Source: Bacillus sp. EAC (GTDB lineage Bacteria > Bacillota > Bacilli > Bacillales > Bacillaceae_G). From it: a stretch of DNA of 64,000 nucleotides. The stretch lies in contig NZ_NCSY01000001.1 in NCBI RefSeq assembly GCF_002156875.1, forward strand, positions 186,001 through 250,000. The letters run 5' to 3'. Below the pieces are notes generated by a model. That model did not search any database, had not been told where the DNA came from, and saw only the letters and a program-made list of their open reading frames with translations. This document shows, piece by piece, positions 11,231 to 15,891 of this stretch (its first letter is position 1; every line of letters begins with the position of its first letter). The position numbers and the translations under genes were made by a program.

Positions 11231-11459
11231 AGTCTTCATCTTTAATATCTGGGTCCTCAGGTATAGGTTCATTATAATAATCTGTTATTAACTTCTTCAT
11301 TTTTTCCATTTGATCTAAGTGATTATTAAACTGCTCTTTATAGATTAAATACTGTTGTCCATCATGAACTACTCTTATTTTTTGCTCTTGAATGAGCTGT
11401 TTGATATAAGATTCATCAAGCGATAGATATTCAGCTGTTTCTTTAATTGTTAAATACAT
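11229..11459 (-). CDS. small excisionase-type HTH protein
   Basis: A 76-residue protein. Residues 1-45 form a winged-helix HTH of the excisionase/MerR kind: MYLTIKETAEYLSLDESYIKQLI then IRVVHDGQQYLIYKEQF. A polar acidic tail follows. The ATG at 11459 sits seven bases after AAGGAG. Such short proteins are often annotated as helix-turn-helix domain or excisionase-family proteins. There is no recombinase next to it, so a chromosomal regulatory role is as likely as a prophage relic. It converges on the SASP gene. Confidence 0.75.
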   Translation of the reverse strand: MYLTIKETAEYLSLDESYIKQLIQEQKIRVVHDGQQYLIYKEQFNNHLDQMEKMKKLITDYYNEPIPEDPDIKDED

Positions 11460-11569
11460 CGAATTCTCCTTACTTACCAATTTCACCTTATTTTAACATA
11501 GATTACTACATAACTATTAAATACTGCTCAAAGAAAAAAACAGAGAAAATTCATCTCTGCTTTGATCGG

Positions 11570-12838
11570 TTAATAAGATGTCCCTCTTACACTTAAAAAC
11601 ATTAATAAGTTTTGAATGGCTTTTTGAGCAATCAGTAGAGCTTGATCAGCATGTGAATGAATCGTTCTAACAAATGCGATTCGCGAATATGAACTAGATA
11701 ATCTACTTACATGTATGCCATCTGAAATTAGCTGACTAAACTCCGCAACGCCTTCCATTTCTTTAATTTCATCTTTATTTTGAATACTTTCTAAAATACC
11801 ATCGAAATTCACATAAGAATACCAAATAGCAGAAGATTTACTCGACTTATTTGTTGAATTTATTTGTTTCACTATTTTCTCTTTAATTAAAAGTCCAGCC
11901 TCTTGTTCGATTACATATTGAATACAGTCTACTCCGATTGAATCATAAATAAGTTCAGGTAATTTATCACTCGGTGGTCTTAAATGTGTTTCAATTATTT
12001 TTGGTCCTTCATTTGTATAAATGATATCAGTATGCGTAATTCCATAATGAATGTTTAAGATATTTAAAAAATCAACAGTGTATTTTTTAATTTCGTTTTC
12101 AATATTGTCTGGTAACTCCGCTGGAAAAACATGACCAATTTCTACTTTGCTTACTGGATCTACATGCTTTTCTACAATACCAACAATAAAATGTTCTCCA
12201 TTTTCAGATAGAATTTCTAAACTAAATTCTCTGCCTTCTAAGAGTGGTTCAATCATTAACGTAGAATGATCAAGTCGAGGTGCAGTTGCCGAATCCGACA
12301 ATAAAAACGCACTTTCGATCTCCTTTTCAGAATTAATAATTGATATGCCTGTACTTGATTTCCCTTTTGATGGCTTTAAGATTAATGGATAAGAATGATT
12401 TTTTGCAAAATCTTTAATATGTTCAATTGAGTTTACTAATCTTGCTGGTGTATTTTCGAAATTACACTCTATTAATCTATTTCGCATCTCGAACTTATCA
12501 TTTACCCATCGAACTGTATCTGAATGATGAAACTTCAGATTTAGTGCTTCTGCGATTGCACTTGCCTTATCCTGGTCCAATTCCTCAAAGGAAGAAATTT
12601 GATGGATTGGATCCATTCTATGTAAATTTTTTGCATATTCAATCCATTGTTCTGTTGAAGCATCGTCTTTAATAACAATAATAGATTCGTGGTTTTGTGC
12701 TCTATGTAAAAATGGCATTTCAGATGCTCTACAAATTACACTTGTTCGAATAGATGAATCTATTTCGCTTAATTTAGAGGAATAATTAGATGTACCTACA
12801 ATTAGGATATGTTTATTTGCTATAGTTAGATTTTCCAT
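11570..12838 (-). CDS. ATP-grasp domain ligase, substrate unknown
   Basis: A 422-residue ATP-grasp enzyme, a class that joins a carboxylate to an amine through an acyl phosphate. The N-terminal Rossmann-like part (1-95) is followed by the ATP-grasp core: lysine strand YPLILKPSKGKSSTGI near 150-170, MIEPLLEGREFSLEIL near 195-210, and the metal-binding ETHLRPPSDKLPE near 283-296, in place of the usual E-x-N-x-R. The layout is like BacD-type amino-acid ligases and other peptide-bond makers. The start follows a strong GGGGAGGA. It diverges from the peptide-sensing regulator at 13046, with a palindrome between them, so regulation by that system is plausible. The product is not known. Confidence 0.82.
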   Translation of the reverse strand: MENLTIANKHILIVGTSNYSSKLSEIDSSIRTSVICRASEMPFLHRAQNHESIIVIKDDASTEQWIEYAKNLHRMDPIHQISSFEELDQDKASAIAEALNLKFHHSDTVRWVNDKFEMRNRLIECNFENTPARLVNSIEHIKDFAKNHSYPLILKPSKGKSSTGISIINSEKEIESAFLLSDSATAPRLDHSTLMIEPLLEGREFSLEILSENGEHFIVGIVEKHVDPVSKVEIGHVFPAELPDNIENEIKKYTVDFLNILNIHYGITHTDIIYTNEGPKIIETHLRPPSDKLPELIYDSIGVDCIQYVIEQEAGLLIKEKIVKQINSTNKSSKSSAIWYSYVNFDGILESIQNKDEIKEMEGVAEFSQLISDGIHVSRLSSSYSRIAFVRTIHSHADQALLIAQKAIQNLLMFLSVRGTSY

Positions 12839-12919
12839 TTAAAATCCTCCCCATTTAAATTATTAGTTCGTACAATCGATTAGCTTGTTCGGTTAAAGAC
12901 TATCTATTTAATTATTAAA

Positions 12920-12941
12920 TTTTACGAAAATTGGCGTAAAT
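12920..12941. promoter_or_regulatory. palindrome in the divergent promoter region
   Basis: ATTTACG and CGTAAAT separated by eight bases, the only strong dyad in the 207-base region between the ATP-grasp gene and the RNPP regulator. A good position for an operator; it differs from the PlcR box. Confidence 0.5.
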
Positions 12942-12981
12942 ACAATATATTTGTAGAAAAATATACGAATAGCCCATGACT

Positions 12982-13009
12982 TTTGTTACTAATTAGACTA
13001 AAATATAAT
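12982..13009 (+). promoter_or_regulatory. probable sigma-A promoter of the RNPP regulator
   Basis: A perfect TATAAT (13004-13009) with TTTGTT 16 bases upstream. Transcription would start near 13016, so a start codon upstream of this point is ruled out. Confidence 0.5.
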
Positions 13010-13045
13010 TATATTTCTGTAAATTGGGGTTTTGGAGTGGAATAT

Positions 13046-14290
13046 ATGTTCGAAAAAGGATCAATTATTCAATATTTTCGTCAAAAAAATGGCCTTACCC
13101 AAGAAGAACTTGGACATGGCATCTGTTCGAAAACGCATTTAAGTAAGATTGAACGTGGACTTACTGAGGTTTCAGATGAAACCATTTCACTTCTTTGTGC
13201 ACGAATGGGTTTTGATATTGATGAAGAAATAAATAAGCTTAAAAACGTTGAAAAACTACTGGATACACTACAAAAACAAATAATTTTTCAAGAGAAAGAA
13301 CGAGCACTAGGTATAATAGACCAGCTCGAAAATCAAGAATTTAGTTATATAACTCCATTACATTTTCGTTATTTACTTTTAAAAACAAGGCAATTTATAG
13401 TAGATAATAAGTTAGAGCAAGCTAAAAAAATATTATTTTCGAAGGAAATACAAAATCAAAAAATACCCCAACTTGAGGAGAATTTACTAAATCATACTCT
13501 TGGAATATACTATATTCAGGTAAACCAAATACATAATGCCCTAGATCATCTAAAGAAAATCTCAATAGAAGGCTATCAAAACTTAGAAATTCATTATCAC
13601 CTTGCACTGGTTTATCATATCTGTGACGCATATGTTTCATCCTATTATCATTGTCAGAAAGCAAAAGAGTACTTTGTTTTAACAAATAACTATTCTAGAC
13701 TTTTAGACACTGAAACGTTACAGTTAATTATTTTAGAAGATGAATCACATGTTGATTTTTCAGAAATAGAAACTAAGTATCAAAATCTATTAGAAATAGC
13801 TGAGATGATAAAGGATAAGAAAAGAGAATTTAACTTATTACACAATTTCGCATATCAGATATATAAAAAAGGTGATTTTGTACAAGCACGTGAAATGTAT
13901 TTACAAGCAAAGGAAGCTCATACAACAGATCCAATTCAATATTTAATATCGCATTTTGGGTATGTACGTTGTTTAGTTGAAGGTAGCTTGGAGAATAATG
14001 AATTTATTCTAAAACTTATATATGAAGGTAAAAGTTTTTCAAAAAAATATAAACAATTATACTATGAATATTTGTTTTATTTATATGAATTAAAAATTGA
14101 AGGCAATGAAATGGCCTACTTCGAATTTTTAGAAGTTACTTTAGTTCCATACCTATATGAGATTAAGTATAAAGCGTTTTTTGATTTATATTTTGAAGAA
14201 TTAACACAATATTATCTTTCTATAAATAGCGGAGACAAAATTCTCTGTTTATTAAAAAAATATAAAATATCTATTTCGATGGGAGAATAA
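13046..14290 (+). CDS. RNPP-family (PlcR/NprR-like) peptide-sensing regulator
   Basis: A 414-residue protein with an N-terminal Cro/C1-type HTH (residues 5-60: IIQYFRQKNGLTQEELGHG, then SKTHLSKIERG) and about 340 residues of helical repeats of the TPR kind. This is the architecture and length of PlcR, NprR and related RNPP regulators, whose TPR groove binds a re-imported signalling peptide. The ATG at 13046 follows GGAGTGG by eight bases and lies downstream of the promoter. An earlier in-frame start at 12983 lies inside that promoter. A 42-codon secreted-peptide gene begins three bases after its stop, as expected for this family. The likely targets are itself, the peptide and the divergent ATP-grasp gene. 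Confidence 0.88.
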   Translation: MFEKGSIIQYFRQKNGLTQEELGHGICSKTHLSKIERGLTEVSDETISLLCARMGFDIDEEINKLKNVEKLLDTLQKQIIFQEKERALGIIDQLENQEFSYITPLHFRYLLLKTRQFIVDNKLEQAKKILFSKEIQNQKIPQLEENLLNHTLGIYYIQVNQIHNALDHLKKISIEGYQNLEIHYHLALVYHICDAYVSSYYHCQKAKEYFVLTNNYSRLLDTETLQLIILEDESHVDFSEIETKYQNLLEIAEMIKDKKREFNLLHNFAYQIYKKGDFVQAREMYLQAKEAHTTDPIQYLISHFGYVRCLVEGSLENNEFILKLIYEGKSFSKKYKQLYYEYLFYLYELKIEGNEMAYFEFLEVTLVPYLYEIKYKAFFDLYFEELTQYYLSINSGDKILCLLKKYKISISMGE

Positions 14291-14293
14291 AAA

Positions 14294-14422
14294 ATGAAAA
14301 AAATATTCGTAATTCTTGGATCAGCATTCGTATTATTAACAAGTATTTCATACAATAGCTTTTCAACTTCAGACAATACTGAAGTTCAAACTTTAGTTAA
14401 TAAAATATATCCAGGTGCATAA
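14294..14422 (+). CDS. putative signalling propeptide, cognate to the RNPP regulator
   Basis: A 42-residue product too short for standard gene lists. It starts with MKKIFVILGSAFVLLTS, a typical Sec signal sequence. The middle is Ser/Thr/Asn-rich (YNSFSTSDNTEVQ) and the tail is LVNKIYPGA. The binding site GGGAGA lies in the last codons of the regulator, and the ATG is three bases after its stop, so the two are coupled. A strong terminator follows. PapR and NprX have the same size, layout and position, and their active peptide is five to ten residues at or near the C-terminus. By analogy the mature signal lies in the last 7-10 residues here. The residues differ from known PapR and NprX peptides. 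Confidence 0.78.
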   Translation: MKKIFVILGSAFVLLTSISYNSFSTSDNTEVQTLVNKIYPGA

Positions 14423-14425
14423 AAG

Positions 14426-14456
14426 AAAAACACGAATCAAAATGATTCGTGTTTTT
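14426..14456. terminator. bidirectional terminator between peptide gene and proS
   Basis: Perfect 14-bp stem (14426-14439 with 14443-14456) with A and T runs at the two ends. It ends both the regulator-peptide transcript and the convergent proS transcript. Confidence 0.92.
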
Positions 14457-14457
14457 T

Positions 14458-15891
14458 TTAATATGCCTTTCCCCAATAAACCATTGCATCTGCTTTCTTA
14501 CCGCAGCAAACACATTCGTCTGTGATTTGTTCTTGTTCAAATGGGATACATCTTGAAGTTAATCCAACTACTTCTTTTATCTTCTCTTCACAAGCTAGAT
14601 CCTTACACCACATTGCTTTAATAAATCCTTGTTTTGAGTCACCAATTTCTTTTAGTTCATTCATTGATTTAGCTTCATATGTTTTTTCTGTTCGGTTTTT
14701 TAACGCCTTTTCAAATAGTGAAGATTGAATTTCGTTTAGTAGGATTGAAATGTTTTCTTCTAATGAATCTAAAGAAACGATCGTTTTTTCACGTGTATCT
14801 CTTCTTACTAATACGGCTTGATTTTTTTCAATATCTTTAGGTCCAATTTCAACACGAACTGGTATACCTTTCATTTCATATTCATTAAATTTCCAGCCTG
14901 GCATTTTATCAGAAGTGTCAATTTTGACACGAGCAACCTTAGAAATACGGTCTTTTAATTCTGTCGCTTTTTCAATTACCCCTTCTTTATGCTGGGCAAT
15001 TGGTATAACAATCACTTGTGTTGGTGCCACTTTTGGTGGTAATACTAGCCCACTATTATCACCGTGCACCATAATTAATGCTCCAATTACCCTAGTCGTC
15101 ATCCCCCATGATGTTTGATGTACATATTGTCTTTTTGAAGTTTTATCAGTGTATTGAATATTAAATGCTTTTGCAAAACCATCTCCAAAATTGTGTGATG
15201 TTCCGCTTTGAAGAGCTTTACCGTCATGCATTAAGCTTTCAATTGTATAAGTAGCTTTTGCACCAGCAAATTTTTCTTTTTCAGTTTTTTGGCCTTTTAT
15301 AACTGGAATGGCTAAAAAGTTTTCTAAGAAATTAGCATAGACATTCAGCATTTGAATTGTTTCTGCCTGAGCCTCTTCCGCTGTCGCATGAGCTGTATGG
15401 CCCTCTTGCCATAAAAATTCAGTCGTTCTTAAAAATGGTCTCGTTGTTTTTTCCCAACGCACAACCGAACACCATTGATTATAAAGTTTTGGTAAATCAT
15501 TATAGCTTTCAACTGTTTTCGAAAAGTGCTCACAGAATAATGTTTCTGAAGTTGGCCGTATTGCAAGTGGTTCTGCTAACTCCTCATGTCCACCATGTGT
15601 AACCCAAGCAACTTCTGGTGCAAATCCTTCAACATGGTCAGCTTCTTTTTGCAATAAAGACTTTGGTATTAGAAGTGGCATATAAACATTTTCATGTTCA
15701 GTTTGTTTAAACTGGAAATCTAATTCTTTTTGAATATTTTCCCAAAGTGCATAGCCATGTGGTCTTAAAATCATGCAACCTTTAACACTTGAGTAATCAA
15801 TTAATTCCGCTTTCTTAACGATGTCTGTGTACCATTGTGCAAAATCGACATCCATATCTGTAATAGCTTCTACAAATTTTTTAGTACTCAT
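14458..15891 (-). CDS. proS: prolyl-tRNA synthetase, archaeal/eukaryotic-like type
   Basis: A 477-residue class II synthetase charging tRNA-Pro. It is the short form without the bacterial editing insertion, with motif 2 in [20 protein letters not shown], the proline-site segment [10 protein letters not shown], motif 3 around VHGDNSGL, and the C-terminal zinc-binding domain (cysteines in [17 protein letters not shown] and CVCCGKK) ending in the conserved Tyr. The start follows AAGGGG. Upstream lies a proline-type T-box leader, so transcription rises when tRNA-Pro is uncharged. Some Bacillus carry this form as a second ProRS besides the long bacterial form. Whether that is so here cannot be seen. 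Confidence 0.96.

Follow-up and report, generated by a model that had tools for sequence, protein, structure and literature searches.

We analysed a window of 64,000 nucleotides from Bacillus sp. EAC (contig NZ_NCSY01000001.1, positions 186,001 to 250,000 of the forward strand) and focused on a gene for a 414-residue regulator with helix–turn–helix (HTH) and tetratricopeptide-repeat (TPR) parts, on the small open reading frame (ORF) for a 42-residue propeptide directly behind it and on a divergent gene for an L-amino acid ligase-like enzyme. Regulator and propeptide very likely form a signal–receptor pair, i.e. a complete cell–cell signalling cassette of the RRNPP type. A preliminary description of this stretch had proposed a quorum-sensing cassette, and this interpretation is supported by the occurrence of the pair at three of three loci and by placement of the receptor among RRNPP proteins by fold and profile. 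RRNPP systems are a known kind (accessible text of PMC10075063, PMC12700828 and PMC9765709). The pair itself lies outside the NprR subfamily by tree and outside the PlcR subfamily by length and fold. Two features go beyond the preliminary description: the divergent ligase gene that accompanies the cassette and the position of the receptor in a sister clade of NprR.

The regulator and the propeptide behind it

The regulator matches the Pfam HTH_3 model at its N-terminal end (39.9 bits against a cut-off of 23, E 4.5e-10), and such an HTH is typical of every RRNPP(A) subfamily except Rap. TPR_12 scores 16.5 bits, under the Pfam cut-off of 30.1, and the TPR part is supplied by fold comparison: the predicted structure contains a TPR superhelix of the RRNPP type, with helices that run on to residue 405 and an alignment with NprR that reaches residue 411. 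NprR is the best fold match of the model, followed by Rap, and is also the best natural match in a wider profile search. These comparisons support the assignment of the modelled regulator to the RRNPP family, with NprR as the probable nearest member by fold and profile. Coordinates, HTH_3 match and fold all agree with the HTH and TPR regulator that had been described.

The small ORF starts three bases past the regulator stop and its product is MKKIFVILGSAFVLLTSISYNSFSTSDNTEVQTLVNKIYPGA. The binding site and Sec-like leader attributed to it earlier are both recovered, the former as a Shine–Dalgarno-like GGGAG and the latter as judged from composition. Two orthologues of the regulator were found, in Gottfriedia endophytica RG28 (56% identical) and G. 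solisilvae NEAU-cbsb5 (58%), and because of these two we refer to the genus as Gottfriedia. The small ORF encodes 52 residues and starts two bases past the regulator stop in G. endophytica, and encodes 50 residues and has a 4-base overlap with the regulator gene in G. solisilvae. All three propeptides begin with MKK and a hydrophobic stretch, have a poorly aligning middle and end in NKIYPGA (window), NKIFPGA (G. endophytica) or NKVLPGI (G. solisilvae). Homologous loci devoid of the small gene had been named as evidence that would speak against a pair; all three loci carry it, adjacent and in frame, with the last seven residues kept. An adjacent gene for a predicted exported propeptide whose C-terminal signal candidate is kept while the rest diverges, as in RRNPP(A) systems, is thus found at each of them.

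In an ungapped register, four of the seven tail columns are invariant as against one of the 35 before them. When the residues from position 23 on were shuffled 200,000 times, four invariant tail columns out of seven never came up; since the propeptides are taken as homologous, the value shows no more than that conservation extends to the tail but not to the middle. The tail codons of the window and G. endophytica differ by three synonymous changes and one replacement. A DNA pattern for the tail with its stop codon has a single match in each of the three cassette genomes, at the propeptide place, whereas the ten remaining genus genomes have no match (reversed control pattern, 0/13). We also scored ORFs by length, hydrophobic leader, K/R near the start, Shine–Dalgarno-like bases and polar end. 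A leader-bearing ORF of this type lies just downstream of all three regulators, where shuffles lead one to expect 0.0, and the small ORF behind the regulator is not a product of chance. The strong terminator reported behind it is present as well: its stem has −18.8 kcal/mol (z −8.5), and 0/200 shuffles fold equally well. A simple terminator scan called it on the − strand only; on the + strand, too, the stem is followed by a run of T.

Regulator-family matches (E 0.001) occur in 68 of the 100 genomes searched, including that of strain EAC, which holds eight members, the regulator itself among them. At the same threshold, each of the 13 genus genomes has 5–15 members. Non-orthologous matches have at most 37% identity among the matches listed, and at most 38% over a long stretch in a separate comparison, with the exception of a partial gene that is 42% identical along 96 residues. 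A search for a wider spread of the cassette at E 1e-90 found it in three of 19 genomes of the family, which are the three already known, and a search of named genomes returned the same two orthologues. Among 397 genomes of the order, with up to four candidates scored per genome, the next-best match has 293 bits against 785–794 for the orthologues. Phage and plasmid origins were rejected: no relative appeared in viral_contigs (two profiles, each scan being seeded from short motifs) or in phage records, and nine plasmid records match with a best identity of 36%, none of them holding an orthologue.

Position of the receptor in its family

We assembled 103 distinct receptors from loci that had been retrieved by score or chosen manually, i.e. 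not a random sample, and placed the 102 with at least 350 residues in a tree. With NprR added, a branch with a Shimodaira–Hasegawa-like approximate likelihood ratio (SH-aLRT) of 99.5 splits NprR and 23 NprR-like rows from the regulator and 76 others (the sister rows), and the regulator falls outside the NprR clade. By this tree it is not NprR, and it branches with a large sister clade of NprR. The equivalent of N275 of NprR, a TPR asparagine that contacts the peptide backbone, is kept as N267 in the regulator; asparagine also stands at this place in the sister clade (74/76) and among the NprR-like receptors (22/23).

Leader-bearing downstream ORFs accompany 14 of the 23 NprR-like receptors (0.5 expected) and 2 of 75 sister-clade receptors (2.6 expected; one of the 76 rows was dropped for its short flank). 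A looser scan flagged four sister rows (L012, L022, L075 and L106), whose ORFs are by eye unlike propeptides. Elsewhere around the sister receptors, ORFs were counted upstream on the same strand in 7/76 (3.8 expected), these seven being dissimilar by eye, and in the two opposite-strand zones in 2/75 (2.9) and 0/76 (2.5). Leaderless peptides escape these scans. As the sister-clade ORFs stay at chance level, no part of the branch other than the lineage of our regulator has, among the rows examined, a linked peptide that convinces.

The nearest parallel in layout is NprR–NprX of the B. cereus group, with an HTH and nine-TPR receptor and an exported-propeptide gene directly downstream. The two systems differ in the tail, which is SKPDIVG in NprX and NKIYPGA in the window, and in the neighbour, which is a ligase-like gene here, whereas nprR adjoins the neutral protease gene nprA, a parallel to the protease-linked sister clade considered below. 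As had been noted, the tail is of neither the PapR nor the NprX type. K is second of seven in both NprX and the window tail; as the pair of NprR residues stacking on it is not kept, nothing is built on this common K. PlcR–PapR and PlcRa–PapRa of the B. cereus group resemble the cassette in having an HTH–TPR activator and a small exported peptide (accessible text of PMC3519770). PlcR has 280–293 residues in Protein Data Bank (PDB) chains, and the regulator with its 414 residues does not belong to this subfamily of five TPRs and about 285 residues; their best profile stretch is 4–140 (E 1.5e-8), and the Foldseek template-modelling score by query is 0.21–0.24. The candidate subfamilies of RRNPP_detector, a survey of complete genomes, likewise combine a receptor of 250–500 residues that matches TPR models with a short ORF bearing a Sec signal (main text of PMC10075063). 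The words 'Gottfriedia', 'ligase' and 'ATP-grasp' are absent from that main text, to which the comparison is confined, and the supplements may list a relative among the 21 new subfamilies. Among the papers listed, literature searches gave nothing pertinent on RRNPP systems with a ligase or on receptors with a subtilase, and the three tails occur in no paper of the literature searched.

Sister-clade receptors often adjoin giant genes. In the EAC genome, four of the six adjoin a gene whose product has a Pfam S8 match above cut-off, and the other two (L153 and L155) have a giant ORF whose visible part holds immunoglobulin-like and other repeats, without S8. Pieces of these giants match the compared flanks, most of which are about 0.7 or 1.5 kb long, of 30/76 sister rows (25 with the protease end and five with the repeat end, the six own-genome sources included), 6/23 NprR-like rows and 0/3 rows of the regulator and its orthologues. 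Twenty rows were picked from the 46 unmatched sister rows, and 12 of these have an S8 ORF within 6 kb on either side, directly adjacent in 11, as against none in 20 like-sized control regions 100–500 kb from family members. The giants with subtilase domains have about 1,140–1,400 residues, are secreted and occur in several genera of the order, with two each at L165 and L167; giant neighbours were seen at L151–L156 (own genome), L165, L167, L168, L170, L171, L173–L177 and L181. Peptides produced by the adjoining protease may be what the sister-clade receptors read; alternatively, these receptors may control the protease.

A second candidate receptor–peptide pair, of the NprR-like clade, was observed in the same genus at L008 2752–2907 (own genome, C23, after 211532), L115, L116, L120, L121, L122 and L126. 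Its leader-bearing ORFs for 51–87 residues lie at the receptor end and have a D[ED]PI[HN]PK segment in common near the C-terminus. At L118, a 74-residue candidate propeptide ORF overlaps the receptor end by 17 bases and contains three tandem copies of DPEDPPG; this precursor could yield several copies of one signal.

The divergent ligase-like gene and its block

The gene divergent from the regulator has the domains of L-amino acid ligases, ATP-grasp_4 (64.2 bits) and LAL_C2 (37.3 bits), both above cut-off. It has these in common with BL00235 (PDB 3vot), its nearest solved relative, from which it is distant (E 2.6e-15). Its orthologues (74% and 50% identity) occur in the same 3 of 13 genus genomes as the regulator and always beside it, and for this reason it appears to be the likeliest local target of the regulator. 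The other ten genomes yield weak matches only (best E 2e-7, at most 29% identity). The frames concerned are for the most part much longer or of another size, and we take them for other ATP-grasp enzymes. Under the candidate scoring given above, two further distant homologues (32–33%) pass 1e-40 in the 397 genomes of the order.

We then compared the surroundings of the ligase–regulator–peptide unit (loci L038, L039 and L138–L150). In the window it is flanked by proS on one side and on the other by a small gene whose product has the motif TIKETAEYL. The unit of G. solisilvae is also placed between proS and a homologue of this small gene, with a 209-codon ORF separating ligase and homologue, while that of G. 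endophytica adjoins the homologue with its peptide end and has proS on another contig. Nine of the ten unit-free genomes have the TIKETAEYL gene after proS with one ORF of 100–119 codons between; for the tenth (L139) the available sequence is too short. Present or absent as a whole and placed elsewhere in G. endophytica, the unit (11570–14422) therefore behaves as one block.

About 50 bases before the regulator start are near-identical in the three species, while the remaining divergent region is not and the proteins share 56–58%. This suggests a constrained leader or operator; by eye, the seven own-genome paralogues lack the stretch. TTTGTA-N8-TACRAA was considered as an operator and is not claimed: it occurs in the window and in G. 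solisilvae and is missing at that place in G. endophytica. A promoter scan was uninformative (19 sites against 18.7 expected), and Rfam gave no match within 11400–14600.

Table 1. Features of the cassette and its surroundings, in window coordinates
Feature	Position	Strand	Remarks
L-amino acid ligase-like enzyme (ATP-grasp, with LAL_C2 domain), 422 residues; candidate target	11570..12838	-	Pfam domains
Shared divergent promoter region, candidate operator place	12839..13045	.	between ligase-like gene and regulator
Stretch nearly unchanged in three species (TTAGACTAAAATA ... TTCTGTAAATYGGGGTTTTGGAGTGGAATAT)	12993..13045	+	-10-like element and regulator 5' leader
Regulator (receptor), 414 residues	13046..14290	+	N-terminal HTH (about 8-60), predicted C-terminal TPR superhelix (about 63-411); ATG 13046, stop 14288-14290
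Shine–Dalgarno-like GGGAG of propeptide gene	14281..14285	+	within last regulator codons, 8 bases before ATG
Propeptide ORF, 42 residues	14294..14422	+	Sec-like leader, linker, C-terminal signal candidate; ATG 14294, stop 14420-14422
Codons of conserved tail NKIYPGA, likely core of mature signal	14399..14419	+	tail comparison
Intrinsic terminator between cassette and convergent proS	14423..14459	.	folding

Proposed signalling and its alternatives

In the signalling cycle that we propose, regulator and propeptide genes would be read on one transcript, as suggested by their spacing and the terminator. The propeptide would be exported by Sec and cut after its leader, and the pattern of conservation points to release of a C-terminal part of 5–10 residues, about NKIYPGA. 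An oligopeptide permease would take this peptide up again; the genome holds eight SBP_bac_5 peptide-binding-protein candidates, one of which may import a peptide of the NKIYPGA type. By analogy with NprR, the peptide would bind the TPR groove of the regulator and alter its DNA binding. The ligase-like gene, which the regulator would activate or repress, and the promoter of the regulator itself are the likeliest local targets; the ligase product, perhaps a dipeptide, would in this way be made according to cell density.

Several observations weigh against this reading. It draws on three loci, all in one genus. Searches with the regulator alone or with a profile of the three orthologues return the HTH end of PrgX and designed TPRs but not NprR; the NprR match requires the wider profile, where an engineered TPR protein stands in the first row. 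Searching with the sequence of the window peptide misses the orthologous peptides (best other match E 0.15), so that their kinship is argued from place and tail. The NCBIfam Phr leader model matches the window peptide weakly (17.6 bits against a cut-off of 25) and the two orthologous peptides not at all, and assignment to the Phr leader family was dropped. The terminator sequence is common to the window and G. solisilvae and not to G. endophytica, and the many 7-base dyads of the AT-rich divergent region include none common to the three species. NprR contacts its peptide through R126, W167, H201 and D309, also N306 (accessible text of PMC4970707). The first four are not kept in the three regulators (N/D/N, I/V/L, I/M/Y and I/N/T), which have Q/N/N at N306, i.e. 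N in two of three. This is a weak comparison, because NprR-like rows mostly lack the residues too (R in 3/23, W in 2/23 and H in 4/23), and the tree alone speaks against NprR membership. Finally, most receptor relatives have no linked peptide, and a receptor of this branch may hence be unpaired.

Given a signal–receptor pair, the ligase is probably its target. It is less likely, though possible, that the pair is real and the ligase a mere neighbour, with the regulon elsewhere on the chromosome or with a peptide that also addresses the seven paralogous receptors. Six of these seven belong to the sister clade and have no peptide of their own, and the lack of a common operator fits such an arrangement. 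However, ligase and regulator orthologues are co-present or co-absent in 13/13 genus genomes and stay together even in the differently placed unit of G. endophytica. The ten peptide-free genomes also carry sister-clade receptors, which therefore cannot all depend on the peptide.

It is unlikely that the small ORF is translated and secreted and yet is not the regulator's signal, e.g. an antimicrobial or membrane peptide under regulator control. Short leader-bearing ORFs serve many functions, the nearest receptor relatives mostly lack one, and the window peptide matches lipoprotein-leader models weakly, though it has no cysteine. Against this reading, conservation is confined to the last seven residues instead of the whole chain, the ORF stands directly behind the receptor at all three loci, and the NprR-like clade has the same layout in 14/23. 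A bifunctional protein of the NprR/Rap type, whose peptide-free form inhibits the sporulation phosphorelay via Spo0F, is very improbable: although the fold is closest to NprR and then Rap, the receptor lies outside the NprR group in the tree, and D107, Y118, E188 and Y223, reported as needed for Spo0F binding by NprR (accessible text of PMC4970707), are I, K, N and N in all three regulators, though most NprR-like rows lack them as well.

In a further reading, which is possible but less likely than not, the cassette would be an outlier with a pheromone in a large and, it seems, undescribed RRNPP-like branch that otherwise shows no dedicated downstream signal gene. Many other members, beside giant secreted subtilases, may read peptides that the proteases release from extracellular proteins, and the lineage of our regulator would have gained or kept its own signal to time an L-amino acid ligase product.

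As a signal–receptor pair, regulator and propeptide would add a new member to a known way of bacterial communication, in a genus with scant quorum literature. The tight link to the ligase gives a directly testable guess at the controlled gene, and a synthetic tail would be a way to switch its product on. The sister clade, with linked giant proteases and no evident signal genes, raises the question of what those receptors sense.
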